Assembly: GCA_928724745.1 (NCBI GenBank)
Contig: CAKMXJ010000009.1
Span: 1 to 64,000 of the forward strand
DNA from: Anthracocystis setariae
Lineage: Eukaryota > Basidiomycota > Ustilaginomycetes > Ustilaginales > Ustilaginaceae
Length of the DNA: 64,000 bases
Direction: 5' to 3'
A program made the translations under genes and the position numbers. Numbering within the stretch: position 1 is the first letter of the stretch; each line of letters starts with the position of its first letter. Below are positions 32,902 through 63,751 of the stretch, in pieces. The notes beneath the pieces were generated by a model that did no database searches, was not told the DNA's origin, and saw only the letters and a program-made list of their open reading frames with translations.

Positions 32902-32975
32902 TTGCGCACACAATGTAGATAGAAGCGATGGATTGGAATGCAAAGGTTACTGTACATGAGGTCAAGCCTGGTGAC

Positions 32976-33258: not shown

Positions 33259-33380
33259 CCTGGTACCACGTCCCTGGCCTTGATACAGTTGCACAGCCAC
33301 GTTCCGAGGTTCTAAGACCCCAGGAGCGTAACATTACAATTGACCTCCCCGTTGCCATCAACGCGGAGACCCCAGCTACT

Positions 33381-41031: not shown

Positions 41032-43901
41032 TTACAAGGGGATCTTGTGGTAGGGCTGAAGACATAACACCCCCTTCTCTGTGCATTACTGGATAGTGCT
41101 AGGTGAGTTTGGCTGAAGTCATTAAGTGGCCCTACGCAAGTTGACTATAAAAACAGGTCAGGGCGGGTCACCGAAAGTAGGGTCGGGACCCCGGGTCGAG
41201 GTAGGGTCTGAGAACTTTTTTTGGATTTTGAGGGATCTGATGCCGCAGGAAGGTGCGTAATGGTGAAATAGGAATGTATGCAAGAAAGCAGGGATGGGGA
41301 ATGCATACTGAGGGTGTAGGGGCAGCAGAAGTTGAAAAACGGCCAAATCCAAAGGGGGGACCATGGGAGCATTTTGTGGACCAAAAAAGTGGCTTGGATG
41401 GACTGCATCTCTTAATGACATACATGTCAAATGGTGCCAAATGGCTGTATCTGCAAGGTCAATGCTGTACCGGTTGCGGTTGCAGCTGGGTAGGGTGAAA
41501 CGTGTCGGCCAGGCCCTACCCCCGTAGGGTTGGACTCTTCTGGCATAATAAGTGGCCATTTTTTGATGTGCGCTGGGGTTCTCTGGCATGCAGGAGCCAT
41601 ATCAGACACTATCTAAGCAAGTTGTCTTCCAGGCCCTAGGGCTAAAATTTTTTGGGACCTGAACCTAGCCCTAGCCCTACCCTGGTCAGGTAGGGCCGAC
41701 CTGAACTTGTATATTGAGACACTGCTGTTTAATGTGCGGTGAGGCTCTCACACCTTCTAAAGATGATTCAACCACTTTGCAGGTCTGTCTGCCTCTTTTG
41801 GTCAGTCACCGGTAGGGCCACCAAACACCACAGACAGGAAGGTGTAGACGTGTATACTATTATGTATTGGAGCGACTATTTACATGGTCTAGGGGAAAAA
41901 ACCCAGTGGGAAAAAAGTGCCCTAGACCCCACAACTATTTACATACGGAACACAGAACTTGGAACTTGGAACAGATCAGGGGAACAGGAGCTCATAATGC
42001 TGGGACTTGGCCAGGTGAAACAGGCCATAGTGGGGTCCCTCTGCATTGTGAGGGTAGATGGTGCCATGGCTGTCACCGGTCTGAGGGTCTATGCCAGAGT
42101 AGACCATGATTGAGATGCTGAATGCCTGCGCAATGGCCATGAGCATGATCTCGTCACCCCATGTTCCTGGCTTGGCCATGTTAGCCAGGTATGTGGCAGC
42201 GGAGAGATGCCCATCGCCCTGGGCCGCAAATGCCAGCAGGATGTCAGGATTCCGCTGCAGCCAGTGGATTGCTTTTGTCCTGACCATCATATGCTGGTCT
42301 TGGTTGCCTGTCAGGTGGTATGCCATGGCCCTGAACATGCAGTTGCCATCCCTGCCAATGATGTTGCTGACCTTCAGACCATACAGGTTGCGAAGCGTAG
42401 CAGCCAGTACAGTGACTCTGTCAACAGCATGGAGGCTGGGCTTGCTCTGCAGTGGCTGATGGGAGGGCAGGGTGACTGCTGGTGATACCACCAGCTCAGC
42501 CACAAAGGGGTTGGGTGTCTCCCTGCATCTGCGGTCTGGGCTGGAGACCAGCTCTGCATCAAGCTCATCCAAGATGGCCTGAATGCTAGCGCTGGTCTCT
42601 GCGCTGCTGCTCCTAACCACAGCAGGGGCTGGCAATGCTGCTGGGAGGAGCACCACCGCATCTGTGCCATGCGTGTGCAGCTCCACCGTTGGTGCTGCCA
42701 CTGCAGGAGAGAGACGCCTACGCAGACGGTTGCTCTGACGGCGTGGACCATGCAGAGGATGGACAGGAGCCTGGTCAGCTGAGGAATCAGAGTTGCTGCC
42801 AAGGTCAGGCATGTCGACATCCTCCTCCTCTGTAGTGACTGCCTCCATTGCTGCTGCCTCTGGCTCTGGCACTGGCTCTGGACCCAGGTCTACCGTCAGA
42901 CGGCCTTGATCAAGCAGCTGGCCAAAGTACTCTCGAGCCTGCTCTTGATTGAGGCGTGCCTTGCAGCCAGTGCACTGCAGGCGGAACTGACGGCGCCCAC
43001 CTTGGTTGTACAGTGCTGGCGCTGGCTTCTGACACTTGGGACACGGTGTCTGACCTTTGATCTGGCCAAAGAAGCTACGCAGAGCATCCATGGTGCGCAG
43101 ACGGCGCTTCAGGAGAGCCTTGGATGGCTGACGGCGCTCCTCAGCCTGTGTTTCCATCTCCACATCATTGCTGGTGATCACTGGTGCTTCTCCTTGAGAG
43201 TGGAGCCACCAGGCAGCTGGATGATCCCAGCGTGTTGGCTCAAAGCGTCCAGTATGCCAACCCAGCGCATTGAAGAGGTCAATGATGATCTGCTGGGAGT
43301 CAGGGTGAGGAGAGCGGCTGTTATTGCCAGAGAACACCTGTTGCTCATCTGCTTTGGCCAGCAGATCACGCAGGTTCTTGATGTAGTCCTCCTTGTTGAT
43401 CTTGATGCTCCGTATCTTGTACAGCTCCATTGCCTCAACCCGTGGCGTCATGTACTGGGTTATATTGAGCACAGGAGTAGCCGTGATGTTGCGTACAGCA
43501 AGGCTGAGGGTTGGGCTGGTGATCGTAGCCTCAACCCGTATGCCACCAAGCTGTTGGCTTGATAGCTTCTCCATGTGCGCCAGATGGCCAAGCAGGGTTG
43601 CTCTCCGCTTCTTGCAGATGTAGATTGACTTTGGCTTGTTGAGCATGTGGTTGCCAGCCTGTGCCTTGATCTGGTGGACGATGCGTGGATAGATCTTCAC
43701 CCGATATGTCTCACCACCGTACTGGACTGGCATCTGGACACCGCCAAAGCCCTGGCCCACCGGTGTGAGGATGGGATACTGCTGGAGGCCAGGGATGCTG
43801 TCATGTCGGTTGGTCACAAGCCAGATGTTCTGGCTGGGCCAGTTACATGCCAGGTCAAAGGTATTGAGGTCCGACATTGGGTGTTGAGGGTTGCCAAGGG
43901 T
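41032..43901 (-). mobile_element. OTU element copy A, truncated at its right (5') end
   Basis: The copy begins with the exact terminus TTACAAGGGGATCTTGTGG at 41032, joined to a broken Ty3 LTR, and matches copies B, C and D closely along its length. Similarity to C and D stops at about 43901 (GGTTGCCAAGG). On the minus strand it reads 5' end at right, 3' end at left. The first 940 bp (41032-41975) are the 3' untranslated part, rich in CCCTA/TAGGG motifs, and the rest encodes the OTU protein. The terminus can form a small hairpin, ACAAG-CTTGT. Confidence 0.85.
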
Positions 43902-44006
43902 TTGATGGGCAAAAAATCGTTGTTTGGACGCGTCCCTGAGAAAATGAGACGGTCCATTTGAAAATTGTGCTGAATTTTGAAATGCCAGGAAGACGTGCCA
44001 CTTCAA
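41976..44006 (-). CDS. OTU-type cysteine protease of element A (5' end replaced)
   Basis: The frame of 676 codons is the most intact copy of the element gene. Its C-terminal part holds an OTU cysteine-protease domain: the catalytic pair region IGRDGNCMFRAMAYHL (Asp and Cys) and a His near the end (SQHYELLFP). Upstream lies a CPKCQKPAPAL...LQCTGCKARL zinc ribbon, an acidic EEEDVDMPD stretch and basic patch RRQSNRLRRRL. The first 35 or so residues (from 44006 to about 43901) are not homologous to the other copies, because the copy is cut there; the native start is missing. OTU enzymes remove ubiquitin or process polyproteins, and several retroelement groups carry one. The rest of the protein matches nothing I recognise. 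Confidence 0.75.
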   Translation of the reverse strand: MKWHVFLAFQNSAQFSNGPSHFLRDASKQRFFAHQTLGNPQHPMSDLNTFDLACNWPSQNIWLVTNRHDSIPGLQQYPILTPVGQGFGGVQMPVQYGGETYRVKIYPRIVHQIKAQAGNHMLNKPKSIYICKKRRATLLGHLAHMEKLSSQQLGGIRVEATITSPTLSLAVRNITATPVLNITQYMTPRVEAMELYKIRSIKINKEDYIKNLRDLLAKADEQQVFSGNNSRSPHPDSQQIIIDLFNALGWHTGRFEPTRWDHPAAWWLHSQGEAPVITSNDVEMETQAEERRQPSKALLKRRLRTMDALRSFFGQIKGQTPCPKCQKPAPALYNQGGRRQFRLQCTGCKARLNQEQAREYFGQLLDQGRLTVDLGPEPVPEPEAAAMEAVTTEEEDVDMPDLGSNSDSSADQAPVHPLHGPRRQSNRLRRRLSPAVAAPTVELHTHGTDAVVLLPAALPAPAVVRSSSAETSASIQAILDELDAELVSSPDRRCRETPNPFVAELVVSPAVTLPSHQPLQSKPSLHAVDRVTVLAATLRNLYGLKVSNIIGRDGNCMFRAMAYHLTGNQDQHMMVRTKAIHWLQRNPDILLAFAAQGDGHLSAATYLANMAKPGTWGDEIMLMAIAQAFSISIMVYSGIDPQTGDSHGTIYPHNAEGPHYGLFHLAKSQHYELLFP

Positions 44007-44170
44007 AATTATTTTGGATTTGAATTCAGCAGATGACGGTCCACTTCAAAGAAAAAGACAGACGGTCTACTTCAAATTGGAAGACAGTCAGTAACAATTT
44101 GAAGACAATCAGTAAGAACCAGGAGACGGTTGGTAACAAAGCAGAAGACAGTCCACTACAATTGCAAAGG
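43915..44170. repeat. Degenerate GACGGTCCA-type minirepeats
   Basis: Short repeats of the form GAAGACGGTCCA followed by TACAAATTG or TTTGAAAATTG recur here with variation (GAGACGGTCCATTTGAAAATTG, GACGGTCCACTTCAAAG, GACGGTCTACTTCAAATTGG, GAAGACAGTCAGTAACAATTTG). The same family occurs at 50939-51037 and 61077-61260. They always lie just to the right of an OTU element copy. Confidence 0.7.
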
Positions 44171-44219
44171 CCAGGCAGACAGCTCATCTCACCACTGACC
44201 ATCCAACATCCACGCCGCC

Positions 44220-44498
44220 ATGACTTTCTTGCCGTGTCCAGTCTGCCACTTTACCTACTCAGCAACCAACATCACCAACCACATCCGCAAAGCCCATGCT
44301 GGAGTCTTTGTTACAGCAGCGCAAGCAGCTGCATGTAGGTTGACAGCATGCTCTTGTGGGCAGGTGGTCCAGAATCATGCCGCACTGAAGCGCCATCAGG
44401 GGATACGCAAGTGCCAAGTCCATCAAGAATCACCATTGTCTGTGCCAGCTACAGCTGTGGTCTCAGATCATGTGCCTCAAGCACAAGAGCAAGAAGAT
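44220..44498 (+). pseudogene. N-terminal fragment of a double zinc-finger gene, cut by a Ty3 LTR
   Basis: From ATG 44220 about 93 residues are open: a C2H2-like finger CPVCHFTYSATNITNHIRKAH followed by a second Cys/His unit CSCGQVVQNHAALKRHQGIRKC. Paired fingers of this type stand at the N-terminus of several site-specific non-LTR retrotransposon proteins and some other fungal mobile genes. The frame is cut at 44498 by the Ty3 LTR (TGTTATGATT), so nothing further can be read; translation into the LTR is artefact. Function is unknown; a retroelement N-terminus is a guess. Confidence 0.45.
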
Positions 44499-45940
44499 TG
44501 TTATGATTGGGATATCGGGAGAGTTAGTGATTGGTTTCAGTATCAGAGCGGGCAGGAGTGGTCCCCCCGATGACGCCCGGATCGGGGACCGGGGGCAGAC
44601 TGCGGCATCACCCGGGGGGTATCCGGGAGGCCACATAATCTCACGTCCTAAGTCCACCACACTCACGACAGGACGTCGATTGTATTTTAGCTTACTCACT
44701 CTAGTAGGTGGAAATATCAGACCTTCTCCCGATCTCCCGCTCACCCGCTCCGCTATCTAGGCAACGATCCCGGGAGCAACACCCGGTACCACGCCCCTGG
44801 CCTCGACACAGACGCACCGCCACGTTCCGAGGTTCTAAGACCCCAGGAGCATAACATTACAATCGACCTCCCCGTTGCCATCAACGCGGAGACTCCAGCT
44901 ACCATGCAAACCCGTAGCCAGCATCGTCCCGGCTCCCCGGACTCAGTTACGAGTTCGGGCAGCCCTACCCCCGAAAGTCCCGATTCAGGAGGCGACCCCG
45001 TCCAGGGGCTAGTCGCCGCCGTGCAGAGCCTAACCGCCCTGGTCGGAGGATTGGCCGACCAGATCCGGCTGCTCAACAGCGGCCGAGCCCCCGACCCCGC
45101 CGTCCTGACCCCGGCAGAACCGGGCCTTCCGCCCATGGAGCACCCGGGAGACCCCTTTCCGGAACGCGAGACCTCGGAGGAAAGGTACGCCCGCGCTACT
45201 CGCCTTATGGGCGAGCGCGGGTCCAATCCCCAGCCGGTGCCCCCGGGAGCTCCCGTCGTGGCTCCCAACTGGGACCTTACGGAGGACTATCCTTCCCGGG
45301 TCAAGACCCCGGAAGTTAGCGTTGCCGCCCCCTCCTGGGACGGTAAGCGCGACGAGCTGGAGGCTTTCATCGAACAATGCACCCTCCATTTCGATCTTAA
45401 CCCGGCACGCTTCCCCTCCGACCCCCGCCGTGTCTTATGGGCCCTAGCCCATATCTCGGGTGTACCCCGGGAGCGGCTCCGCAACCTGCGCCAGGCCCGC
45501 CCGGAAATCAACCTGTTCCACAAGTGGGACACGTTCTGCGCCGATCTCCGCTGCACCTACGGGGATCCTAACCCGGGACACACCGCCCGGGTCAAGCTCC
45601 AGCGGCTGCGCCAATCGGGAAGCGTCAGCGCTCACGCTGCCGAGTTCTTGGCCCTAGCCACTAAGGCTAACGCTACCGATAATCAGCAATTGCTGACGAC
45701 TTTCCAGCTTAGCCTCCGGGAGAGCCTCCGGCAGAAGCTCCTCCACGTGGAGACCTACGACCTGCACGAGTACATTGACACCGCTATCCGAACCGAGCAG
45801 CGAATGTACGAAATTGGCTTGGTGACCCCGGGTCACTCGGACACCCCGGGTCGCCCGGAACGCCGCCCCAAACTTCAGGGCGGTCGCTCACCCAATTCGA
45901 CGGTACCCCGTCGCGAGGCCCCCAACAAGCGGGGTGATCC
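44499..45940 (+). mobile_element. Ty3 element 2, left LTR and gag only, cut off at element B
   Basis: The left LTR begins TGTTATGATTGGG at 44499 (LTR to about 44782) and the sequence is a close relative of element 1 from its start through gag. It ends abruptly at 45940 (GGTGATCC); then come TTTGGG and the terminus of element B. No protease, polymerase or right LTR follows, so the rest was lost by truncation, not by internal insertion. Confidence 0.85.
44904..45940 (+). pseudogene. Truncated Ty3 Gag
   Basis: About 345 residues of Gag, highly similar to the first 350 residues of the intact Gag-Pol at 33381, are kept. The frame is cut just before the zinc knuckle at NKRGDP, where the element B junction lies. 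The few residues after that (LGYKGILW) are read from the junction and from element B. Confidence 0.88.
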
Positions 45941-45946
45941 TTTGGG

Positions 45947-47099
45947 TTACAAGGGGATCTTGTGGTAGGGCTGAAGACATAACACCCCCTTCTCTGTGCA
46001 TTACTGGATAGTGCTAGGTGAGTTTGGCTGAAGTCATTAAGTGGCCCTACGCAAGTTGACTATAAAAACAGGTCAGGGCGGGTCACCGAAAGTAGGGTCG
46101 GGACCCCGGGTCGAGGTAGGGTCTGAGAACTTTTTTTGGATTTTGAGGGATCTGATGCCGCAGGAAGGTGCGTAATGGTGAAATAGGAATGTATGCAAGA
46201 AAGCAGGGATGGGGAATGCATACTGAGGGTGTAGGGGCAGCAGAAGTTGAAAAACGGCCAAATCCAAAGGGGGGACCATGGGAGCATTTTGTGGACCAAA
46301 AAAGTGGCTTGGATGGACTGCATCTCTTAATGACATACATGTCAAATGGTGCCAAATGGCTGTATCTGCAAGGTCAATGCTGTACCGGTTGCGGTTGCAG
46401 CTGGGTAGGGTGAAACGTGTCGGCCAGGCCCTACCCCCGTAGGGTTGGACTCTTCTGGCATAATAAGTGGCCATTTTTTGATGTGCGCTGGGGTTCTCTG
46501 GCATGCAGGAGCCATATCAGACACTATCTAAGCAAGTTGTCTTCCAGGCCCTAGGGCTAAAATTTTTTGGGACCTGAACCTAGCCCTAGCCCTACCCTGG
46601 TCAGGTAGGGCCGACCTGAACTTGTATATTGAGACACTGCTGTTGAATGTGCGGTGAGGCTCTCACACCTTCTAAAGATGATTCAACCACTTTGCAGGTC
46701 TGTCTGCCTCTTTTGGTCAGTCACCGGTAGGGCCACCAAACACCACAGACAGGAAGGTGTAGACGTGTATACTATTATGTATTGGAGCGACTATTTACAT
46801 GGTCTAGGGGAAAAAACCCAGTGGGAAAAAAGTGCCCTAGACCCCACAACTATTTACATACGGAACACAGAACTTGGAACTTGGAACAGATCAGGGGAAC
46901 AGGAGCTCATAATGCTGGGACTTGGCCAGGTGAAACAGGCCATAGTGGGGTCCCTCTGCATTGTGAGGGTAGATGGTGCCATGGCTGTCACCGGTCTGAG
47001 GGTCTATGCCAGAGTAGACCATGATTGAGATGCTGAATGCCTGCGCAATGGCCATGAGCATGATCTCGTCACCCCATGTTCCTGGCTTGGCCATGTTAG
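45947..47099 (-). mobile_element. OTU element copy B, short 5'-truncated copy
   Basis: It starts with the same TTACAAGGGGATCTTGTGG terminus as the other copies and keeps only 1153 bp: the 3' untranslated region and the last 67 codons of the OTU gene (ending at 46891). The right end falls inside the gene at CCATGTTAG, which merges with a single TTAGGG at 47096-47101 that leads straight into copy C. Junction on the left: TTTGGG then TTACAAGG. Confidence 0.88.
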
Positions 47100-47101
47100 G
47101 G
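47096..47101 (+). repeat. Single TTAGGG between element copies B and C
   Basis: The hexamer TTAGGG stands between the truncated end of copy B and the terminus of copy C, in the same orientation as the telomere arrays at 50868, 61006 and 61662. Its first four bases overlap B's own GTTAG. Confidence 0.7.
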
Positions 47102-50100
47102 TTACAAGGGGATCTTGTGGTAGGGCTGAAGACATAACACCCCCTTCTCTGTGCATTACTGGATAGTGCTAGGTGAGTTTGGCTGAAGTCATTAAGTGGC
47201 CCTACGCAAGTTGACTATAAAAACAGGTCAGGGCGGGTCACCGAAAGTAGGGTCGGGACCCCGGGTCGAGGTAGGGTCTGAGAACTTTTTTTGGATTTTG
47301 AGGGATCTGATGCCGCAGGAAGGTGCGTAATGGTGAAATAGGAATGTATGCAAGAAAGCAGGGATGGGGAATGCATACTGAGGGTGTAGGGGCAGCAGAA
47401 GTTGAAAAATGGCCAAATCCAAAGGGGGGACCATGGGAGCATTTTGTGGACCAAAAAAGTGGCTTGGATGGACTGCATCTCTTAATGACATACATGTCAA
47501 ATGGTGCCAAATGGCTGTATCTGCAAGGTCAATGCTGTACCGGTTGCGGTTGCAGCTGGGTAGGGTGAAACGTGTCGGCCAGGCCCTACCCCCGTAGGGT
47601 TGGACTCTTCTGGCATAATAAGTGGCCATTTTTTGATGTGCGCTGGGGTTCTCTGGCATGCAGGAGCCATATCAGACACTATCTAAGCAAGTTGTCTTCC
47701 AGGCCCTAGGGCTAAAATTTTTTGGGACCTGAACCTAGCCCTAGCCCTACCCTGGTCAGGTAGGGCCGACCTGAACTTGTATATTGAGACACTGCTGTTT
47801 AATGTGCGGTGAGGCTCTCACACCTTCTAAAGATGATTCAACCACTTTGCAGGTCTGTCTGCCTCTGTTGGTCAGTCACCGGTAGGGCCACCAAACACCA
47901 CAGACAGGAAGGTGTAGACGTGTATACTATTATGTATTGGAGCGACTATTTACATGGTCTAGGGGAAAAAACCCAGTGGGAAAAAAAGTGCCCTAGACCC
48001 CACAACTATTTACATACGGAACACAGAACTTGGAACTTGGAACAGATCAGGGGAACAGGAGCTCATAATGCTGGGACTTGGCCAGGTGAAACAGGCCATA
48101 GTGGGGTCCCTCTGCATTGTGAGGGTAGACGGTGCCATGGCTGTCACCGGTCTGAGGGTCTATGCCAGAGTAGACCATGATTGAGATGCTGAATGCCTGC
48201 GCAATGGCCATGAGCATGATCTCGTCACCCCATGTTCCTGGCTTGGCCATGTTAGCCAGGTATGTGGCAGCGGAGAGATGCCCATTGCCCTGGGCCGCAA
48301 ATGCCAGCAGGATGTCAGGATTCCGCTGCAGCCAGTGGATTGCTTTTGTCCTGACCATCATATGCTGGTCTTGGTTGCCTGTCAGGTGGTATGCCATGGC
48401 CCTGAACATGCAGTTGCCATCCCTGCCAATGATGTTGCTGACCTTCAGACCATACAGGTTGCGAAGCGTAGCAGCCAGTACAGTGACTCTGTCAACAGCA
48501 TGGAGGCTGGGCTTGCTCTGCAGTGGCTGATGGGAGGGCAGGGTGACTGCTGGTGATACCACCAGCTCAGCCACAAAGGGGTTGGGTGTCTCCCTGCATC
48601 TGCGGTCTGGGCTGGAGACCAGCTCTGCATCAAGCTCATCCAAGATGGCCTGAATGCTAGCGCTGGTCTCTGCGCTGCTGCTCCTAACCACAGCAGGGGC
48701 TGGCAATGCTGCTGGGAGGAGCACCACCGCATCTGTGCCATGCGTGTGCAGCTCCACCGTTGGTGCTGCCACTGCAGGAGAGAGACGCCTACGCAGACGG
48801 TTGCTCTGACGGCGTGGACCATGCAGAGGATGGACAGGAGCCTGGTCAGCTGAGGAATCAGAGTTGCTGCCAAGGTCAGGCATGTCGACATCCTCCTCCT
48901 CTGTAGTGACTGCCTCCATTGCTGCTGCCTCTGGCTCTGGCACTGGCTCTGGACCCAGGTCTACCGTCAGACGGCCTTGATCAAGCAGCTGGCCAAAGTA
49001 CTCTCGAGCCTGCTCTTGATTGAGGCGTGCCTTGCAGCCAGTGCACTGCAGGCGGAACTGACGGCGCCCACCTTGGTTGTACAGTGCTGGCGCTGGCTTC
49101 TGACACTTGGGACACGGTGTCTGACCTTTGATCTGGCCAAAGAAGCTACGCAGAGCATCCATGGTGCGCAGACGGCGCTTCAGGAGAGCCTTGGATGGCT
49201 GACGGCGCTCCTCAGCCTGTGTTTCCATCTCCACATCATTGCTGGTGATCACTGGTGCTTCTCCTTGAGAGTGGAGCCACCAGGCAGCTGGATGATCCCA
49301 GCGTGTTGGCTCAAAGCGTCCAGTATGCCAACCCAGCGCATTGAAGAGGTCAATGATGATCTGCTGGGAGTCAGGGTGAGGAGAGCGGCTGTTATTGCCA
49401 GAGAACACCTGTTGCTCATCTGCTTTGGCCAGCAGATCACGCAGGTTCTTGATGTAGTCCTCCTTGTTGATCTTGATGCTCCGTATCTTGTACAGCTCCA
49501 TTGCCTCAACCCGTGGCGTCATGTACTGGGTTATATTGAGCACAGGAGTAGCCGTGATGTTGCGTACAGCAAGGCTGAGGGTTGGCTGGTGATCGTAGCC
49601 TCAACCCGTATGCCACCAAGCTGTTGGCTTGATAGCTTCTCCATGTGCGCCAGATGGCCAAGCAGGGTTGCTCTCCGCTTCTTGCAGATGTAGATTGACT
49701 TTGGCTTGTTGAGCATGTGGTTGCCAGCCTGTGCCTTGATCTGGTGGACGATGCGTGGATAGATCTTCACCCGATATGTCTCACCACCGTACTGGACCGG
49801 CATCTGGACACCGCCAAAGCCCTGGCCCACCGGTGTGAGGATGGGATACTGCTGGAGGCCAGGGATGCTGTCATGTCGGTTGGTCACAAGCCAGATGTTC
49901 TGGCTGGGCCAGTTACATGCCAGGTCAAAGGTATTGAGGTCCGACATTGGGTGTTGAGGGTTGCCAAGGTCTGGACCGTCATATGGGTAGTTGACCCACA
50001 TCTTCATGCCGTAGCCTTGGACTCTGACAGTATCAACACCTGCCTTCTGCAGACAGTTGATGAAGACACTGCAGGTGATCACCTGATTGCCCCGGATCAG

Positions 50101-50867
50101 AGCTTCAGGATAGTCGGAGCCCAGCATGATGATGTCGGCGGAGATGAGGACGTTGAGGAGCGGGATCTTGAACTTTGGGTGGATCTTGATGTTGAAGACG
50201 CACTGGCCAGCGCTGACCCAGTCCTTGAATGTGGGATGGTCCTTGATGGTGGGAGCGTGACTGACCAACTGAACAGGTGACATTGGCTTGAACACCTGGA
50301 GTAAGTCTTTGGGGTACAGGCTGATGTTCCACGCATCAAGGTCACGTGGAGCCATGAATCCTTTGGTGACTTGATGGTCCATCCTAATGGGCAATGGATG
50401 GTCCATTGTGACGCTCTCAAGGGAATAGAGAGGTGCTGAAAAGAAGAGAGGATTGCTTGGGCGTCTGTGCTGTGTCTGGCGCAAAGTGAGTTGATGTTGC
50501 TCGGTCGTTTGATTTGTCCAATGCTTGAGGTCTTGATGTCCTGGGATCTTGAGGAGGGTTCCTGTGGATGATAATGGGCTTGGTGCAACGTCAAGAAGAG
50601 GCTATTGACAAGGTCTTGAGGTGGTCTTGTTGTCTTGAGGTCCTTTGCTTTGGATTGCTTGATGCTCTTGAGGTTTGTTGACTTTTTTTGTTCCACCAGA
50701 GGTGATCTTCCAATCTCCACTAGATATGGTTGGCCAAGCCACGTCTAGCAGAGAATACAGAAGACAAGACGCTGGGCAGGAGCTCTGTATAGGGACTAGT
50801 CACCTAAGTCAAGAGACAGCACCAGTCGTCTTAGAACACGTCAACTCACTTGCAGACTTCTTGAGGC
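47102..50867 (-). mobile_element. OTU element copy C, full right part, flanked by TTAGGG arrays
   Basis: The copy runs from TTACAAGGGG at 47102 to CTTGAGGC at 50867, where a TTAGGG-type array begins. It is the longest unit type, about 3.77 kb, with a 3' untranslated region of about 940 bp, the complete but frameshifted OTU gene and about 460 bp 5' leader rich in CTTGAGG. It is almost identical to copy D, including the array and 140 bp beyond it. Confidence 0.85.
48047..50406 (-). pseudogene. OTU protease gene of copy C, one-base deletion
   Basis: From ATG 50406 (MDHPLPIRMDH) the reading frame runs through an N-terminal region absent from copy A. A single G is missing near 49585, in the GGTTGGCTGG run that reads GGTTGGGCTGG in copy A. 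After it, the gene continues in the shifted frame to a stop at 48047 with the same zinc ribbon and OTU domain. An intact product would be about 785 residues. The N-terminal 190 residues (FMAPRDLDAWNISLYP, IMLGSDYPEALIRGNQV, GYGMKMWVNYPYDG) match no family I know. Alternatively, an upstream frame start (50484) exists but the next ATG fits better. Confidence 0.75.
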
Positions 50868-50896
50868 TAGGGGGTTAGGGGGTTAGGGTTAGGGTT
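50868..50896 (+). repeat. TTAGGG-type array at the right end of copy C
   Basis: About four and a half units: TAGGGGG, TTAGGGGG, TTAGGG, TTAGGG, TT. Two units carry five G, so it is an imperfect telomere-type array. An identical array stands at 61006. Confidence 0.85.
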
Positions 50897-51037
50897 CTAA
50901 TGCTTATCCCCAGGTGGGCAGCTCGCGTCTGGCCCTCTGGAAGACGGTCCATTTGAAAATTGGAAGACGGTCCAATTGAATTGTGAGACGCGTCTGTATT
51001 CATCTGGCAAGACGGTCCAATACAAATTGGAAGACGG

Positions 51038-52149
51038 TGTCAGCGGTCGGGCGCCTGGTAAATAGGCCGATCTTGTTTCGAGAGCGGTGCGGTCCTGTTG
51101 GGCTGGGCCGCCGAGTTTGGGTTACGCGCCTGCGCAACTGGGAAGTACGAGGTGGGTTGTGCAGATACGTCGGCGGTCCGATGAGGACGACTGGGCCGCA
51201 CTCGACTTGGCGGCGGTGGAGAGTGGGCTTCTCGACCGCGTTCGACCTATTACCGACTGACGCTGTTGGCGCTCCGTTCAGAGGCAGCACGGCGTACTCG
51301 GTATTACGGCGTGTTAGCCTGGTGTCTCGCGAGCGCTCTTGACAAGACAGAAGGCTGGCTGGTTAGCTAGGTGGACACTGGACGTGATCACCAAGCTGTT
51401 AGAGAGACGGCTAAGAGCCTGCCGTCTCGGTGTCAGCGTGTAGCAGCGTTTACGCGCTGCGGTGTCGGTACACGTACCGACGAGGACTAGCTGTTCTCCG
51501 ACTTGAACGGAGGCACGCGAGGAAGCTGCAATGATACTGTATTGCAACTTACTAAACTAGTTACTGGAATGATCGTGAAGACGTCGTTAAGAATAGATAC
51601 TGAGCTGAAGACTGATGTTGTAAGAAGTAGAGTGGATGAGGAGCTCATCCACTACGAGCCAGACGAGGAGGCTTTAAGTACGATCGCTCCAAGCCCCTAT
51701 GGCAAGACTGACCCGGCGCTAGCCTATTGTCTAGCTGCATGGCCTGCGTGTGCGCATGTACTGACCGTGGTACAAGCAGCTGATCACCTCCAAGCCTCTG
51801 AGAGCGCCGGAGATGGTGCCCCTTGACTGTTGATCACCTCGAGATGGTGTTGTCGCGATCCGGCGTCCCTACGACGTCGAGCGGCCGCAATCCGATCGTT
51901 AGAAGCAACAGCGGTCGAGAACGACCTTCCAGGCCGCTTTCGCTCTGAGTGCGGCCGTAATGCGTGTTTTCCACCGCACCAACTTTTGCCGCCTGTGAGT
52001 AACGCCACCGCTAAATACGACGCACTGCCGGCAGCGTACCTCCTCTCTTTCAATGCCAGCGCGTCCGAATATACCTCTATCGACCGCGCTTGAGCTGAGA
52101 GCGGCCGAAAAGCAGGTTTTCCGCCGCCTCGGCTTCACCGCCTGTGACA
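51038..52149 (-). repeat. LTR of Ty3 element 3
   Basis: On the + strand it runs from TGTCAGCGG to CCTGTGACA, so on the element strand it has perfect TGTCA...TGACA ends and lies directly after a G-rich polypurine tract, as required of a right LTR. Length 1112 bp. Within it, two blocks near 51945-51995 and 52098-52150 (GAG(T/A)GCGGCCG then TTTTCC(A/G)CCGC then GCCGCCTGTGA) are a diverged tandem duplication. No second LTR is present to confirm the borders. Confidence 0.7.
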
Positions 52150-52296
52150 TTACCCCCCTTCCGAAACCCGAGCTCCTGCGAGGCGAAATGAAATGGGCTG
52201 CGCATCTTCCAGCCGCTGTGAGCTCGACGGCGGCAGAGTGATGAGTCTGAAGAACTACCATCATCACTTCCAGCCCCATTCGCCGCCATCAGCACC

Positions 52297-53935
52297 ATGG
52301 CGCCCAAGAAGAGAACCTCGCCTATGTCTGCCGTTCCCTCGCGTCGATCGGCTCGGCTCGCCAAAACGCCAGCCGATGCCGACACCCCTTCCGACTCGTC
52401 GTCCGGCGTCAGTAACGCCCCAGCGACGTCTGCCAGTACAGTCACGCCTGCAGTCCTCGTCGTCGCTGCCGCCGCTGTTCCTGTTCCCGACACCACGGCT
52501 GTGGTTACTGCTGCCGCCCCCTCTACCGCAGTGGACAAGACTGCTGCTGCCGCCGCCTCAGACGCCGCGGCTGTTACCGCTGTTGTTCCTGCGTCCGACG
52601 CCGTGGCTGTAACTGCTGTTGCCTCCACTGCTGACGCCATTACGCCCTCTGTTGGTGTCTCTGAACCAGTCGCCTCTACTCCCCCACAGAGCCGGATCCC
52701 GTCGGATGGGGTCGGCTCTCTGCTGGTACCATTGTTCCTCGGCCCGTCGCGCTCGCCGTCGTCGAGGGGTTCGGTCTCGCCGCCTCGCTCGCCAGTCTAC
52801 ATACGATCATCGCCGGACCTGTACGCGCCCCCAACGTCTCCTTCACGTATTCCTACCTCTCCGGTGAGGTTCACGGACGAGGAGCTGCGTGCGATGACGA
52901 GCGCGCAGCTCCACGAACACGGTCTAACGCCAGCGTCGCCCGTGGAGCCTCGTTCACCCGTTTACGGTACGGAGTCGAACGAACCTGCTGGTCCTGGGCG
53001 TTCCGGCACTCCTGTGGACTCTTGGGAGTTATCCGGCCGCCAAACGCCTGGCCTTGGCCCGCTATTGGGGTCACCCGACCGCCGTACGCCTGAAATCGGC
53101 CCGCCGCCCATCCGTCGAGCCGAAGACGTGGTGTCGCAACGTACTGGTCCACGAAAACCCTCCTTGGTCGAAATGTTGGAATGGACGGAACGATTTACTG
53201 CCCCGGCGCTGCTCATTGCCATCGTCAACGAGGCCTGGGACCGCAATTGGCAACTCGACGACGCCGGAAAGGTCTGGTTGCACCGGACAATGGTGCGACA
53301 CCTGACTGAGGGTAGCTCGCCATGGCCGAATTACAGCTGCCAGCACTGTACCAACCTTGATGTGCCGTAAGTATCGTTCTCGACATGAGTGGCTTGTCCA
53401 GTACTGACCATCTGCCTTGTCCTTTGATTACAACAGATGCTTCCCGGTCACCTATGGTGATCCCACGGGTCCTCGCCCTCGACCAGCAGCCTCGTCGTGC
53501 TGCCATTGCTTGACGAGCAAAAAGAAATGTGGTGGACGTACGATCTGGCGTGCCACACGCCACGAGTACGTTGGCGATAGCCCCTACACCACGTTGGGAA
53601 CGAACGAGCGGGCTGTGGTGCGTGCCCACCTATCGTACGCTGGAGGTCTTGGTTTGGGTGCGGTGCGGCGTCGCGACCGCCTGGTGGACTGGTTCAAGGA
53701 GCGCTCCTTCCACCTCGACGCTCGCGACGCCTTCTCAGCGGAGGGCGCAATCGGGACCCAAGTGCGTGAGACCTTGGCGCGGTACCACCGCGAGAATCGC
53801 TCTCTGCTCGGCCAGTACCTTCCGTGCGAAGTCATGGAGGAGGAGCCGAACTTCGAGGGTCTTGGCTGGTTCGTGGAAAGCCGTGGTGACGATGAGGCGG
53901 AGGTGCGATACCACCGCCCTGAAGTCTTCCGTTAA
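52297..53935 (+). CDS. Antisense gene of Ty3 element 3, Cys-rich protein
   Basis: Two exons, 52297-53366 and 53437-53935, are joined by a 70-bp GT-AG intron (GTAAGT ... CAACAG); the splice fuses CQHCTNLDVP to CFPVTYGDPTGPRP and keeps the frame. The product of about 522 residues has a basic start (RRSARLAK), a long Ala/Val/Thr-rich tract, several Arg-Ser-Pro repeats and a Cys cluster (CQHCTNL...CCHCLTSKKKC) like the one in the antisense gene of element 1 (CWSCANSKKK), followed by a charged C-terminus. Both genes run tail to tail with pol and are spliced, so this is likely a shared feature of these Ty3 elements. Function unknown; DNA or RNA binding is possible. Confidence 0.7.
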
Positions 53936-54159
53936 CTCCTGTCCCGCAATTTGAGGTCATTTCCGTTTCCTGCTGTTGTGCTTGAGACTCTTATGAATTG
54001 GTCGTAATGTCTTGAACTTGAGAAAAGAGTGTGAGTGTGTGGCGACGGGTGTCGATGGCGGCCGATTGCATATGCCAACACACCGCAGTCACATCACGGC
54101 GGCTGAATGACCAGCACCGCGCCGCCAAATTATCAAACGCGGTCGGATAGCTAATTTGC

Positions 54160-57100
54160 TTACCGCCGTCCCACTCGAGGAAGTCGTCCCCCCCGCTTTT
54201 CCTCATACTCCTGGATGAGGTCGGGGCAGGCCAGAAGTTCGACAGGCTCCCAGGACGCTTGCTCCTCAGGGTAGCCCTTCCAAAGGACGCGGTATTGAAG
54301 CCTTCCATCACGTGTACGATGACTTGTGATAGCTTCGACCTCATATTCGAGGTCTTCGTCGGGTAGTGGCGGAACAGCCGCGCGCTCTTCTCTGCCCGCT
54401 AGTTCGCTGGATCGTCTCTTTTCAAGCATCGAGACATGGAAGACGTCGTGGACCCGTAGTGACGCTGGCAACTGGAGGCGGTACGCTCGAACGCCGATAT
54501 GCTCGACAATGGGATATGGCCCGGCGAAGCGGGTGTCGAGCTTGGGACTTGGTCGGCGAGTCTTCCAGTTGCGTCGGCTGACGTAGACGAGCTCACCAAC
54601 TTTGAATTCGACGTCGAGATGCTTCTTGTTGTACTGTTCGACCGCACGAGCCTGAGCCGACCGGACTTGATCCTGCAAATAAGTAGTGAGCTCGGCTTCT
54701 GAACGAGCGAACTCAGCTCGCTGAGGGTCGAGCACGCCAGCACGCTCTGGTACCTCTGGATGCAGCTTAGGATTCCACCCGTAGCACGCAAAGAATGGTG
54801 AAACGCCGAGACTGCTGTGTACCGCGTTGTTGTAGACGAACTCGGCGTTGGCCAGCAGCGAGGCCCAGTTGTCCTGCTCGTAGTTGCAGTACATACGGAG
54901 GTATTGCTCGACGACTTGATTGACCCGTTCAGTCTGACCGTCTGTCTGAGGATGGTACGCCGTCGATAGAGAGTGCTGAATAGAGAGAGAGTCGGTGTAC
55001 CGTTTCCAGACCGCGGAGATGAACTGTCGGCCGCGATCAGAGACAATATGCTCGGGTGTCCCAAACCGGCGGAACACATGTTGCTGGAGGAGCTCAGCAG
55101 TGCGAGCCGATGTGATAGTCTTGACCGTGGGCGTGAGTACTGCGAGCTTGGTGAGCCGATCGACGACGACCAGAATCGAATCGTAGCCGTCGGAGAGGGG
55201 CAGGCCCTCGATAAAGTCCATGGATACCGATCCCCATGGTCTTGAAGGAGTGGCCAACGGCTTGAGCAGGCCGTACGGCCGGTGACGGGGTGCCTTGTAG
55301 CGAGCGCAGACCGGGCAACTCGCTACATAGTCGGCAATCCAAGCACGCATTCCCGGCCACCAGTAGTGACGCTGGGTGAGGGCTAGCGTTGCGTCACGAC
55401 CCGGGTGCCCGGCAGTGATGCCGTCGTGGCACTGCGTCATCACCATGAAGCGCAGGTGCTCTACCGAGAGCGACTGTTCGCTGGCAATCTTGGCCGAGCG
55501 TGTGTCGCAGCGACCCTGCTTTCCGGCCAGCGTGACCTTGGGAATGACAAGTCGGCCTTCGCGATACCAAAGACCGTCTTTGACTTCGAAAGGCGTGTGC
55601 TTGTGGAGCGCTTGGAGCTCGGTGTCGAGCGGTTGGAAAACGCGAACTAACTCCGGCAGGCCGCCCCTTACTATTGCCGCCATCGACGACTGCGGCTGAA
55701 TGACCCCCGTCAAGCCGCCATCGGATTCATTTTGGCCCGGTGACTGATTTTCCGGTAATCCAATTTCAAAAATGCGGGGGTGGAGGAGCTGCCGTACGTT
55801 ATGCTCGCGCTCTTCAGCCGACGGCTCCATGTCACTGCGTCGTGTCAAAGAGTCGGGCTCGCCAGCCTTGTCTCCCGGTCGGTACTGAACAACAAAGTCG
55901 AAGTCGGCCAGTAACACAGCCCAACGAGCCTGTCGGCCGCTAATTCAACGTTGTACGGTGAAGTACTTGAGCGCCTCGTGATCTGAGAGAACAGCAAACT
56001 GAGACGGGAGGCCAGCCAGCATATGTCGCCACTGATGGAGGCAGGCAACGATGGCGAGGAGCTCTTTGTCATGGATCTCGTAGTTTTTCTCAGCTGACGT
56101 CATCTTGCGCGAGTAGAAAGCCACGGGATGCCATCTGTTCTCCGTCTCCTGTTTGAGAACGCCGGCGATGGCGAAGTTGCTGGCGTCAGTCTCGAGGCGG
56201 GTTGGCTTGTGGTAATCGAAATGTCGCAGTACTCCCGCTGTCGTGAAAGCCTCGATGAGCTTGTGGAAAGCCTCTACCGCCTCCTCCGACAGTTGGAACT
56301 TCTTGAACCGCTCCGTAGGCTTGATGAGCGTTGTGAGGGGCTTTGATATCCGAGCGAAATGTGAGATAAACCGGCGGTAGAAGTTCGCAAACCCCAGGAA
56401 GCGCTGGATATCGTGAATCGTCTGAGGTAACGGCCACTCTTTGATGATTCGTACCTTCTCTTGATCCATTTCGATGCCTCCTGGCGTGATGACGTAGCCG
56501 AGGAACTCGACGGTGTCGGTGTGGAAAATGCACTTTGACAGTTTGGCGAAGAGTCGGTTCGCTTGTAGACGCCGCAGTACCTCGCGGACGTGATCAACAT
56601 GCTCGTCCTCCTTATTGCTGAAGATGAGGAAGTCGTCAAGGTACACTACCACGTAGACTCCGATGATGTCGCGAAAGATGCTGTTGACGAGCGACTGGAA
56701 ATGTGAAGGCGCATTGGCCAGCCCGAAAGGCATGACAAGGTACTCATACAGGCCGAGTTGGGTGCCGAACGCCGTCTTCCATTCATCACCGTCGGCTATT
56801 CGTACCAAGTTGTATGCCGCCTTGAGATCGAGCTTACTGAACACCTTAGCATTCCTTAGGAGGAACAGCTGCTCCTCGATGAGCGGCAACGGCGCTCGAT
56901 TCTTGACAGTGACCTCATTGAGCCCTCGGTAGTCGACACAGAGGCGGAGGCCGCCGTCCTTCTTCGGCACGAACAGCACTGGCGAGCGAGCTGGGCTCTT
57001 TGACGGTCGAATGAATCCCTTCGCAAGATTCTCGTCGAGGTACTTGCGTAGTTCCTCCATTTCCTTAGGCCCCTTGAGATAGAGTGGGCCCTGCGGAGGT

Positions 57101-57240
57101 TTGGCTCCCGGCACGAGCTCGATGGGCAAGTCCGTGCTGGTGCGAGGAGGCAGCTTGTCGGCCTCGACTTCACTGAAGACCGCCTCGAGATCCCGGTATT
57201 GCTCTGGGATCGACACTGGAGTCGGTGGTTCAGGCTCCAC
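54160..57240 (-). pseudogene. Ty3 Pol (RT, RNase H, integrase, chromodomain), 5'-cut and with one stop
   Basis: Read from 57240 the frame starts after the protease with EQYRDLEAVF, then reverse transcriptase (FVPKKDGGLRLCVDYR, YLDDFLIFS), RNase H (LETDASNFAIAGVL), a TGA at 55945-55947, then in the same frame RQARW, an integrase zinc region (HYWWPGMRAWIADYVASCPVCARYK), the DDE core (MDFIEGLPLSDGYDSI, SDRGRQFISAVW, YHPQTDGQTERVNQVVEQYL) and a chromodomain (YEVEAITSHRTRDGRLQYRVLWKGY). One C-to-T change at a CGA would give this TGA. Gag and protease are lost at the copy D junction. The element is therefore dead. Confidence 0.9.
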
Positions 57241-60200
57241 TTACAAGGGGATCTTGTGGTAGGGCTGAAGACATAACACCCCCTTCTCTGTGCATTACTG
57301 GATAGTGCTAGGTGAGTTTGGCTGAAGTCATTAAGTGGCCCTACGCAAGTTGACTATAAAAACAGGTCAGGGCGGGTCACCGAAAGTAGGGTCGGGACCC
57401 CGGGTCGAGGTAGGGTCTGAGAACTTTTTTTGGATTTTGAGGGATCTGATGCCGCAGGAAGGTGCGTAATGGTGAAATAGGAATGTATGCAAGAAAGCAG
57501 GGATGGGGAATGCATACTGAGGGTGTAGGGGCAGCAGAAGTTGAAAAATGGCCAAATCCAAAGGGGGGACCATGGGAGCATTTTGTGGACCAAAAAAGTG
57601 GCTTGGATGGACTGCATCTCTTAATGACATACATGTCAAATGGTGCCAAATGGCTGTATCTGCAAGGTCAATGCTGTACCGGTTGCGGTTGCAGCTGGGT
57701 AGGGTGAAACGTGTCGGCCAGGCCCTACCCCCGTAGGGTTGGACTCTTCTGGCATAATAAGTGGCCATTTTTTGATGTGCGCTGGGGTTCTCTGGCATGC
57801 AGGAGCCATATCAGACACTATCTAAGCAAGTTGTCTTCCAGGCCCTAGGGCTAAAATTTTTTGGGACCTGAACCTAGCCCTAGCCCTACCCTGGTCAGGT
57901 AGGGCCGACCTGAACTTGTATATTGAGACACTGCTGTTTAATGTGCGGTGAGGCTCTCACACCTTCTAAAGATGATTCAACCACTTTGCAGGTCTGTCTG
58001 CCTCTTTTGGTCAGTCACCGGTAGGGCCACCAAACACCACAGACAGGAAGGTGTAGACGTGTATACTATTATGTATTGGAGCGACTATTTACATGGTCTA
58101 GGGGAAAAAACCCAGTGGGAAAAAAGTGCCCTAGACCCCACAACTATTTACATACGGAACACAGAACTTGGAACTTGGAACAGATCAGGGGAACAGGAGC
58201 TCATAATGCTGGGACTTGGCCAGGTGAAACAGGCCATAGTGGGGTCCCTCTGCATTGTGAGGGTAGACGGTGCCATGGCTGTCACCGGTCTGAGGGTCTA
58301 TGCCAGAGTAGACCATGATTGAGATGCTGAATGCCTGCGCAATGGCCATGAGCATGATCTCGTCACCCCATGTTCCTGGCTTGGCCATGTTAGCCAGGTA
58401 TGTGGCAGCGGAGAGATGCCCATTGCCCTGGGCCGCAAATGCCAGCAGGATGTCAGGATTCCGCTGCAGCCAGTGGATTGCTTTTGTCCTGACCATCATA
58501 TGCTGGTCTTGGTTGCCTGTCAGGTGGTATGCCATGGCCCTGAACATGCAGTTGCCATCCCTGCCAATGATGTTGCTGACCTTCAGACCATACAGGTTGC
58601 GAAGCGTAGCAGCCAGTACAGTGACTCTGTCAACAGCATGGAGGCTGGGCTTGCTCTGCAGTGGCTGATGGGAGGGCAGGGTGACTGCTGGTGATACCAC
58701 CAGCTCAGCCACAAAGGGGTTGGGTGTCTCCCTGCATCTGCGGTCTGGGCTGGAGACCAGCTCTGCATCAAGCTCATCCAAGATGGCCTGAATGCTAGCG
58801 CTGGTCTCTGCGCTGCTGCTCCTAACCACAGCAGGGGCTGGCAATGCTGCTGGGAGGAGCACCACCGCATCTGTGCCATGCGTGTGCAGCTCCACCGTTG
58901 GTGCTGCCACTGCAGGAGAGAGACGCCTACGCAGACGGTTGCTCTGACGGCGTGGACCATGCAGAGGATGGACAGGAGCCTGGTCAGCTGAGGAATCAGA
59001 GTTGCTGCCAAGGTCAGGCATGTCGACATCCTCCTCCTCTGTAGTGACTGCCTCCATTGCTGCTGCCTCTGGCTCTGGCACTGGCTCTGGACCCAGGTCT
59101 ACCGTCAGACGGCCTTGATCAAGCAGCTGGCCAAAGTACTCTCGAGCCTGCTCTTGATTGAGGCGTGCCTTGCAGCCAGTGCACTGCAGGCGGAACTGAC
59201 GGCGCCCACCTTGGTTGTACAGTGCTGGCGCTGGCTTCTGACACTTGGGACACGGTGTCTGACCTTTGATCTGGCCAAAGAAGCTACGCAGAGCATCCAT
59301 GGTGCGCAGACGGCGCTTCAGGAGAGCCTTGGATGGCTGACGGCGCTCCTCAGCCTGTGTTTCCATCTCCACATCATTGCTGGTGATCACTGGTGCTTCT
59401 CCTTGAGAGTGGAGCCACCAGGCAGCTGGATGATCCCAGCGTGTTGGCTCAAAGCGTCCAGTATGCCAACCCAGCGCATTGAAGAGGTCAATGATGATCT
59501 GCTGGGAGTCAGGGTGAGGAGAGCGGCTGTTATTGCCAGAGAACACCTGTTGCTCATCTGCTTTGGCCAGCAGATCACGCAGGTTCTTGATGTAGTCCTC
59601 CTTGTTGATCTTGATGCTCCGTATCTTGTACAGCTCCATTGCCTCAACCCGTGGCGTCATGTACTGGGTTATATTGAGCACAGGAGTAGCCGTGATGTTG
59701 CGTACAGCAAGGCTGAGGGTTGGCTGGTGATCGTAGCCTCAACCCGTATGCCACCAAGCTGTTGGCTTGATAGCTTCTCCATGTGCGCCAGATGGCCAAG
59801 CAGGGTTGCTCTCCGCTTCTTGCAGATGTAGATTGACTTTGGCTTGTTGAGCATGTGGTTGCCAGCCTGTGCCTTGATCTGGTGGACGATGCGTGGATAG
59901 ATCTTCACCCGATATGTCTCACCACCGTACTGGACCGGCATCTGGACACCGCCAAAGCCCTGGCCCACCGGTGTGAGGATGGGATACTGCTGGAGGCCAG
60001 GGATGCTGTCATGTCGGTTGGTCACAAGCCAGATGTTCTGGCTGGGCCAGTTACATGCCAGGTCAAAGGTATTGAGGTCCGACATTGGGTGTTGAGGGTT
60101 GCCAAGGTCTGGACCGTCATATGGGTAGTTGACCCACATCTTCATGCCGTAGCCTTGGACTCTGACAGTATCAACACCTGCCTTCTGCAGACAGTTGATG

Positions 60201-61005
60201 AAGACACTGCAGGTGATCACCTGATTGCCCCGGATCAGAGCTTCAGGATAGTCGGAGCCCAGCATGATGATGTCGGCGGAGATGAGGACGTTGAGGAGCG
60301 GGATCTTGAACTTTGGGTGGATCTTGATGTTGAAGACGCACTGGCCAGCGCTGACCCAGTCCTTGAATGTGGGATGGTCCTTGATGGTGGGAGCGTGACT
60401 GACCAACTGAACAGGTGACATTGGCTTGAACACCTGGAGTAAGTCTTTGGGGTACAGGCTGATGTTCCACGCATCAAGGTCACGTGGAGCCATGAATCCT
60501 TTGGTGACTTGATGGTCCATCCTAATGGGCAATGGATGGTCCATTGTGACGCTCTCAAGGGAATAGAGAGGTGCTGAAAAGAAGAGAGGATTGCTTGGGC
60601 GTCTGTGCTGTGTCTGGCGCAAAGTGAGTTGATGTTGCTCGGTCGTTTGATTTGTCCAATGCTTGAGGTCTTGATGTCCTGGGATCTTGAGGAGGGTTCC
60701 TGTGGATGATAATGGGCTTGGTGCAACGTCAAGAAGAGGCTATTGACAAGGTCTTGAGGTGGTCTTGTTGTCTTGAGGTCCTTTGCTTTGGATTGCTTGA
60801 TGCTCTTGAGGTTTGTTGACTTTTTTTGTTCCACCAGAGGTGATCTTCCAATCTCCACTAGATATGGTTGGCCAAGCCACGTCTAGCAGAGAATACAGAA
60901 GACAAGACGCTGGGCAGGAGCTCTGTATAGGGACTAGTCACCTAAGTCAAGAGACAGCACCAGTCGTCTTAGAACACGTCAACTCACTTGCAGACTTCTT
61001 GAGGC
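57241..61005 (-). mobile_element. OTU element copy D, almost identical to copy C
   Basis: It begins TTACAAGGGG at 57241, directly after the Ty3 pol fragment, and ends CTTGAGGC before the TTAGGG array at 61006. It differs from copy C at very few places (for example one T/G at 58003 and one A less in the run near 58120). The gene carries the same single-base deletion as copy C. Confidence 0.85.
58185..60544 (-). pseudogene. OTU protease gene of copy D, same frameshift as copy C
   Basis: ATG at 60544 and stop at 58185 correspond to 50406 and 48047 of copy C. The same G is missing near 59723. The shared lesion means that C and D come from one already broken ancestor or that one was copied from the other. 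The domains are as in copy C. Confidence 0.75.
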
Positions 61006-61034
61006 TAGGGGGTTAGGGGGTTAGGGTTAGGGTT
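61006..61034 (+). repeat. TTAGGG-type array at the right end of copy D
   Basis: The same units as at 50868-50896 in the same order (TAGGGGG, TTAGGGGG, TTAGGG, TTAGGG, TT). Confidence 0.85.
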
Positions 61035-61566
61035 CTAATGCTTATCCCCAGGTGGGCAGCTCGCGTCTGGCCCTCTGGAAGACGGTCCATTTGAAAATTG
61101 GAAGACGGTCCAATTGAATTGTGAGACGCGTCTGTATTCATCTGGCAAGACGGTCCAATACAAATTGGAAGACGGTCCAATACAAATTCAACTTTTTTGA
61201 GCGTGCTGAGCAGGGAAGACGGTCTACTACAAATCCAAGACGGTCCACTACAAGTTACAAGGCTGTTCTCATGAGGCATCAAATACACCTTCAAATCTGT
61301 ACTAATCGGAGTTGTAGAGCTAGCTCAGAGCTGTCAGAAGCCGTTGAGTTTGGGTTAAAGTTTAACCTATTGACGGAGATACGGGCATTTGAAGTTGCCG
61401 CCAGGATTCTGTCGGGGAAGAATATTTTTTTTTCAAAGAGGAGGAAGGGTGGAGGCAATGTGTGGAACAGCTAGAAGAACCTATAGAGAGGCTGTACACA
61501 TGTCAAGAGTGGTGAAATTGCAAGTGGTTGTGGTGCTGCAGGGGTTCAAAGTTGACACCAAGGTAC
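61035..61566. other. Subtelomeric non-coding stretch with minirepeats
   Basis: Right of copy D, 61035-61175 equals 50897-51037, then the GACGGTCCA-type minirepeats continue to about 61260. The rest, with an A/T block near 61424-61436, holds no recognisable gene. Confidence 0.5.
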
Positions 61567-61661
61567 TGTTATGATTGGGATATCGGGGGAGTTAGTGTTT
61601 GGTTTTAGTATTAACATGGGCGGGGGTAGTTCCCCCGATGAGGTCCCGGATCGGTGATCGG
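61567..61661 (+). repeat. Broken Ty3 LTR capped by telomere repeats
   Basis: The first 95 bp of the element 1 LTR type (TGTTATGATTGGGATATCGG to GGATCGGTGATCGG) end inside the LTR and are followed directly by TTAGGG repeats. Confidence 0.85.
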
Positions 61662-61679
61662 TTAGGGTTAGGGTTAGGG
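61662..61679 (+). repeat. Three perfect TTAGGG units
   Basis: Three exact TTAGGG units join the broken LTR to the sequence TTACATAGGGG at 61680, which resembles the terminus of the OTU elements (TTACAAGGGG). Confidence 0.9.
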
Positions 61680-63490: not shown

Positions 63491-63751
63491 GGCGCCGTGC
63501 CCAAAGTACAGATCCGGTGAGCATGTCTGTGGGAGCATCAACTCCAGGTCAGCACCTGTTTTCCATCTGTCAGACCACCAGCACATCAATTGACCAGCGC
63601 ATCCATTTTCTTTGACTGTCAGACCGCCATCAAGTCTAGCAGACGGGAAAGCATGGGAACCACAGAAGGAGTACAAAGCGGTCTGTGTGGAAGATGGAGA
63701 GTCAAATCACGGAGAGCCTTCTTTCCTCTGCGGTAGTTGTATTTTCCAAGG
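63491..63751. other. Non-coding, nothing recognised
   Basis: No domain, repeat or RNA gene was found between the second family copy and the tandem repeat. Confidence 0.4.

Follow-up and report, generated by a model that had tools for sequence, protein, structure and literature searches.

The window analysed here, the first 64,000 bases of contig C9 of Anthracocystis setariae (C9:1-64000), is part of a 67,822-base contig that ends with TTAGGG repeats and a short tag, and it carries four copies of an element, termed the OTU element below, whose minus-strand open reading frames (ORFs) have Pfam OTU matches at 9e-12 and 6e-12. A sequence-only reading of this DNA had recognized the protease and the common start of the four copies, and both stand: a 19-base start is present at exactly 41032, 45947, 47102 and 57241, on the plus strand only, with no further site in the window. 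The picture is of apparent mobile DNA in a fungus, attached through a single fixed end to chromosome ends that are broken or capped by a telomere. The features are as follows, with a slash marking junctions.

41032..43899, minus strand: OTU element copy 1, fixed end at 41032, cut at element position 2867, on a cut Ty3 long terminal repeat (LTR) (...CGATCTC/TTACAAGG)
41976-44006, minus strand: OTU ORF of copy 1, with the Pfam OTU match
43901..44495, plus strand: class-3 terminus unit (GGG/TTTGATGGGCAAAAA...), one G added onto the native end of copy 1; interrupted by Ty3-like sequence at about 44496
44496..45946, plus strand: cut Ty3 LTR and gag-like fragment, acceptor end for copy 2 (...GATCC, then TTTGGG); Ty3 identity from similarity to 32973-34417 and from position
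45947..47099, minus strand: OTU element copy 2, cut at element position 1153 (...CCATGTTAG)
47096..47101, plus strand: TTAGGG junction between copy 2 and copy 3
47102..50866, minus strand: OTU element copy 3, element positions 1-3765
50870..50894, plus strand: short telomeric tract behind copy 3
50895..51038, plus strand: class-2 terminus unit (TTCTAATGCTTATC...), belonging to a composite common to copies 3 and 4
54160..57240, minus strand: Ty3 integrase/chromodomain and reverse transcriptase (RT)/RNase H ORFs, cut at 57240, acceptor end for copy 4 (...GGCTCCAC)
57241..61005, minus strand: OTU element copy 4, element positions 1-3765
61008..61032, plus strand: short telomeric tract behind copy 4
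61033..61254, plus strand: class-2 terminus unit, cut (...CTACAAG)
61255..61567, no strand assigned: short class-1 unit (TTACAAGGCTGTTC...), 92-94% like units of other contig ends
61662..61679, plus strand: TTAGGG x3, then TTACATAGGGG sequence

Comparison of the window with itself gave 2869 columns common to copy 1 and copies 3 and 4 (to 43899), 1153 in the case of copy 2 (to 47099), and 3937 common to copies 3 and 4 at 99.95% identity (to 51038 and 61176). The OTU part of the latter two stops at about 50866 and 61005, ahead of a short TTAGGG tract, and their common stretch consists of OTU element, telomeric tract and class-2 start. When the genome (G000; 21.47 Mb in 36 contigs) was searched with 41032-42000, as the sequence-only reading had proposed, 15 copies were found, and their 20-base left flanks are of 12 different kinds. 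When every contig is oriented with its end to the right, all 15 start at the identical base and have the fixed end pointing away from the contig end, which bears out the proposal that the fixed end faces the centromere and the ragged ends the telomere. The right ends differ, at element position 500 in C23, where the contig terminates in TTAGGG, 984 in C34, where 30 TTAGGG repeats are present, 1153 in copy 2, 2867 in copy 1, 3409 in both C31 and C32, and 3765 in copies 3 and 4, where the telomeric tract follows. The description of these ends as ragged holds for their differing positions and fails in so far as not all are truncations: those of C28/C30 (position 2401) and C6/C8 (position 658) look like LTR insertions, and in C18, C19 and C36 the common sequence goes on past position 3765 to about 4.4 kb. 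The original observation is confirmed and is larger than reported, and its interpretation is partly supported.

The OTU element has one of three classes of left terminus with like behaviour, TTACAAGG, TTCTAATGC and TTTGATGGGC. Genome-wide there are 175 sites of TTAGGGTTACAAGG, 100 forward and 75 reverse, with the backwards pattern at 0, and the 100 that were listed all have the telomeric layout, minus near contig starts and plus at high coordinates. The register is strict, TTAGGTTACAAGG being found only twice. The class-2 terminus, TTCTAATGCTTATC, has 14 flanks, and GGGTTCTAATGCTTATC occurs 52 times forward and 50 times reverse against a control of 0; the class-3 terminus, TTTGATGGGCAAAAA, has four flanks. 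A 14-mer scan for common left boundaries ranked TTACAAGGGGATCT first. Downstream of TTACAAGG there are several sequence families in head-to-tail arrays, with TTAGGG between many of the units, and one chromosome is terminated by a TTACAAGG-type piece of about 17 bases followed by TTAGGG. The sequence-only reading had placed one gene 3′ end at the fixed terminus, and this is so for the OTU class only: in C34 a gene that begins immediately to the right of a TTCTAATGC terminus points to the telomere, which suggests that the fixed end is a property of the DNA and not of the 3′ end of a gene.

Several side observations concern these termini. At the high end of C3 (C3:1800762-1810179) one short unit forms a tandem array, with TTAGGGTTACAAGG every ~446 bases. 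At 61680 and at the contig ends of C31, C32 and C36, other sequences after telomeric tracts also start with TTACA (TTACATAGGGG, TTACATATGGG, TTACACTCGG), and because of this the terminus family may be broader than TTACAAGG. The short palindromic motif CCCGACGTCGGGTT occurs 10 times at the contig ends examined and is bordered on each side by five or more different sequences. TTAGGG tracts at the ends of C9, C34, C36 and C8 are followed by GGTGCTGGTGTTACCGTGGGAATGAATCC..., which resembles an untrimmed nanopore barcode; as about 700 more bases stand beyond this tag in C34, that end may be a chimaeric join. A tandem repeat with a 111-base unit (2.4 copies, 63740-64000) runs to the window edge.

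The junctions themselves are informative. Across the three classes at 13 contig ends there are 34 + 14 + 4 = 52 distinct left-flank strings of 20 or 16 bases, some of them near-duplicates, with two TTACAAGG sites of C9 below 40,000 outside the count. The last base of the flank is G in 46 and C in six, never A or T, and 24 of the strings end in TTAGGG, in agreement with the TTAGGG first noticed at the window's junctions. These 24 and one flank at an edge (C34 stretch position 51, ending in C) were left out of a search for parental sequence, which succeeded for 24 of the remaining 27 flanks and gave no parent for three. Native sequence is joined directly in 13 of the 24, mostly with little or no homology, as in the Ty3 LTR at copy 1 (...CGATCTC^CCGCTC) and Ty3 pol at copy 4 (...GGCTCCAC^CTCAAT), two of the 13 parents being themselves telomere-like. 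In the other 11 a short string is added (G, GGG, AGGG, TTTGGG, AGGGTAGGG or similar), always ending in G, and a few of these may be divergence, since the parents are 86-100% identical. Copies 1, 2 and 4 stand on cut Ty3 sequence, relatives of their flanks diverging beyond each join, and the acceptor of copy 3 is TTAGGG, all as first read; the terminal TTTGGG of the copy 2 acceptor is not in the sole parent found (94% identical). The fixed left terminus, usually after GGG, joins telomeric repeats or cut native DNA, and the distal part varies in length and composition. The added bases look like the work of telomerase or of templating, and recombination alone would hardly yield direct joins that fall on a single exact base where homology is slight.

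An intact OTU ORF in C18 specifies 786 amino acids from its first ATG, within an open frame of 851. Its product belongs to the OTU cysteine proteases (PF02338), with an OTU fold and a family hidden Markov model (HMM) score of 45 bits against a cut-off of 23.3, and it has metagenome relatives with 66-67% identity over 99%. On the N-terminal side of the OTU domain is a core domain without a Pfam match, together with a zinc-ribbon-like CxxC...CxxC stretch. A second protein family, P0010, likewise subtelomeric, has the same core with a degenerate OTU end and, as its sequence reads, would carry two zinc-finger-like stretches. Direction, assigned from coordinates, is inward for 18 of 18 OTU matches within 30 kb of a contig start (contigs C30 and C31 are shorter than 30 kb), and outward for the best 22 of the 44 core matches in a P0009 search. 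Near the right end of C21 the OTU match at 458577 also reads outward. There (C21:456001-460366) a 746-amino-acid OTU-core ORF directed toward the contig end, which represents a second OTU subfamily with the opposite direction, precedes nine TTAGGG; behind these stand three TTACAAGG units, one cut short. Further OTU matches are at C4:356283, C5:923157 and C19:296088, the first and last of which may be host genes as they are not near the low end of their contigs. Between OTU copies dN/dS is 0.18 (15 synonymous and nine non-synonymous changes) and 0.25 (six and five); for one zinc-finger pair, whose open frame includes a minisatellite, it is 0.58, and distant pairs are near saturation. The genome also has 38 Fungal_trans matches, which mark the host as a fungus.

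The core domain weakly resembles a DNA-nicking enzyme, here fused to the OTU protease. The top VIA matches of its structural model are Rep_trans rolling-circle initiators and MOBT relaxases (PF02486), and the order Asp, Asp, basic-x-Tyr, Arg-x-Glu, counted by eye, appears equal on matching strands of the model and PF02486. In a fold search with the first model most matches spanned the OTU part only. At the sequence level the core had no match to the Rep_trans family HMM or to a profile built from four proteins and 12 of 120 homologues listed; a PHROGs search gave only scattered weak matches, the core profile found only OTU proteins and one eIF5 among PDB sequences, and of 10 pattern matches in viral contigs none was confirmed. 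We infer that the core domain is a tyrosine nickase of Rep_trans-like fold, and the OTU protease is probably an accessory deubiquitinase guarding the nickase or its DNA-linked intermediate.

The elements look like RT-less, one-ended elements of chromosome ends, and the reading preferred here, with a probability of roughly 40%, is strand transfer: a tyrosine nickase encoded by the element would attach a displaced strand, through its fixed 5′ end, to the 3′ end of a chromosome. Beyond the anatomy we infer every step. The nickase would cut the G-rich strand at GGG/TT, where a donor element meets its own telomeric tract, and would remain bound to the 5′ end (TT...); the displaced strand, reaching to the end of the donor's chromosome, would be moved to the free 3′-OH of another end, either a telomeric overhang or a break with G or C as its last base, and the new distal end, whole or broken, would get a telomerase cap. 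Such a transfer would account for the exact 5′ end, the indifference to gene direction, the composites, the ragged distal ends and the acceptor base preference. Slightly less credence, well short of even odds, attaches to the broader proposal of a eukaryotic telomere transposon family in which a Rep_trans-like tyrosine nickase with an OTU protease joins fixed 5′ ends to chromosome 3′ ends at GGG/TT, healing breaks and building telomere arrays by DNA strand transfer and not reverse transcription; a single enzyme family would serve three or more terminus classes. An ability to heal breaks is suggested by the cut Ty3 acceptors. The protein lends itself well to testing: a predicted catalytic Tyr and Arg-x-Glu lie in its one conserved domain, and the junction is short and defined.

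A less likely but serious alternative is RNA-templated addition. Here an RNA with the 3′ end ...CCUUGUAA or ...CCUUGUAACCC would pair with the 3′ end of a chromosome, or lie against it, and serve as template for telomerase, a long interspersed element RT or an unseen Penelope-like enzyme, incomplete copying giving the ragged ends. Such attachment has been proposed for Terminons (PMC6431247). The GGG/TTACAAGG register fits pairing with UAACCC, and register and G-ending additions alike are explained as well as by strand transfer; the ~17-base copy followed by TTAGGG at a chromosome end also fits, and the genome has one TERT match and many other RTs. A genome-wide search, made for RVT_1, gave 150 scored matches of 206 candidates. 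Ten of those listed lie no more than 15 kb from a contig start, and of these, with right ends covered in part, only two read inward, C2:11285 and C28:14203. Some of the elements also have RT neighbours on their centromere side: copy 4 adjoins Ty3, and at the C23 end there is a cut RVT_2 ORF of copia type. However, no RT domain was found by Pfam in the element ORFs scanned, though a longer RT-bearing copy may exist elsewhere, and RNA-templated priming would need an RT in trans. The RT gene that the sequence-only reading had named as a sign to look for, in the longest copy or in a partner, is absent from the nine further ORFs of at least 180 amino acids in the longest unit examined (C36); the reverse transcription it favoured as mechanism is not supported, nor is a retroelement in the strict sense. 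Neither a non-LTR RT ORF of MoTeR/HeT-A type (longest unit included) nor a Penelope-like RT was seen in the ORFs scanned, in copies that may be truncated. Outward genes behind class-2 termini would require antisense templates, and the composites run across telomeric tracts. No hammerhead was detected at E<=1 by cmscan of six loci (55,283 bases), from which divergent minimal forms could escape. Tests for a conserved fold in the terminal 175 bases were mixed: on the gene-sense strand z is +0.83 for type A (seven sequences) and -4.24 for type B (three), on the other strand -3.16 and -3.66, and the two types together have no conserved fold. Two candidate RNA features were discarded, a weak group II intron match, the only one to a known RNA in the six loci (E 0.23, below the gathering score), and a plus-strand terminal hairpin (20 sequences, mean z -0.14, standard error 0.29) that is strong in two class-2 variants only. 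A conceivable variant would be a telomerase-RNA run-on, in which TTACAAGG would correspond to sequence next to the template of the telomerase RNA. Even if RNA-templated priming were right, the common terminus, the OTU protein and the lack of an RT would need explanation.

About as likely as RNA-templated addition is break-induced replication, by which yeast Y′ elements are known to spread. Short or broken ends would anneal to interstitial TTAGGG tracts adjoining an element, from which the donor would be copied as far as its end, the fixed terminus simply following the tract. The many TTAGGG-ending flanks agree with this, composites and independence of gene direction come naturally, and the C19 and C36 contig ends have in common a 13.3-kb block, from the OTU element onward, at 99.6% identity; yet the 13 direct joins to native DNA at the exact terminus, and the same rule in three terminus classes, tell against it. 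Plain shuffling of a host gene family along with chromosome ends, with no mobile element, is very improbable: subtelomeric families often duplicate and the C19/C36 block would suit it, but the OTU element alone has one exact terminus on its 12 flanks, cut Ty3 included.

Among known systems, yeast Y′ elements are likewise subtelomeric units beside telomeric tracts, spread by recombination, whereas the exact termini described here are also on non-telomeric DNA. The non-LTR elements HeT-A, TART, TAHRE, MoTeR and FoTeR are also at chromosome ends and truncated on one side, and as with them the gene 3′ end of the OTU class faces the centromere. Unlike all these retrotransposons, the present elements have no RT in the ORFs scanned, and in a second class genes lying behind such a fixed end read outward. 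The likeness to Rep_trans initiators and MOBT relaxases would lie in the VIA matches and the residue order of the core model, and the differences are the missing sequence-level match and the fusion, in a fungus, to zinc ribbon and OTU protease. Helitrons and Helentrons would have a rolling-circle logic in common with the present elements, and OTU proteases are present in some animal and certain fungal Helentrons (PMC6431247); no RepHel (HUH Rep plus helicase), Helitron or helicase domain was matched by Pfam in the element ORFs scanned. In bdelloid rotifers the Terminons (Athena), which are Penelope-like retroelements deficient in endonuclease, form head-to-tail telomere arrays and have accessory ORFs that include Rep proteins, and they show, as here, short telomeric stretches between units and one-sided truncation (PMC6431247); their RT, and their hammerhead before reverse-complement telomeric repeats, were not found in the ORFs and loci searched here. 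Terminons are nearest in logic, yet they are retroelements. Within the incomplete coverage of the literature searched, none of the titles listed is on a telomere element with one fixed end, an OTU protein and no RT. All the mobile elements with telomere attachment that were compared (HeT-A type, MoTeR/FoTeR and Terminons) are retroelements, and attachment without an RT to broken and capped ends, at one exact base and with any gene direction, would if true be a different solution to the problem of joining a chromosome end.

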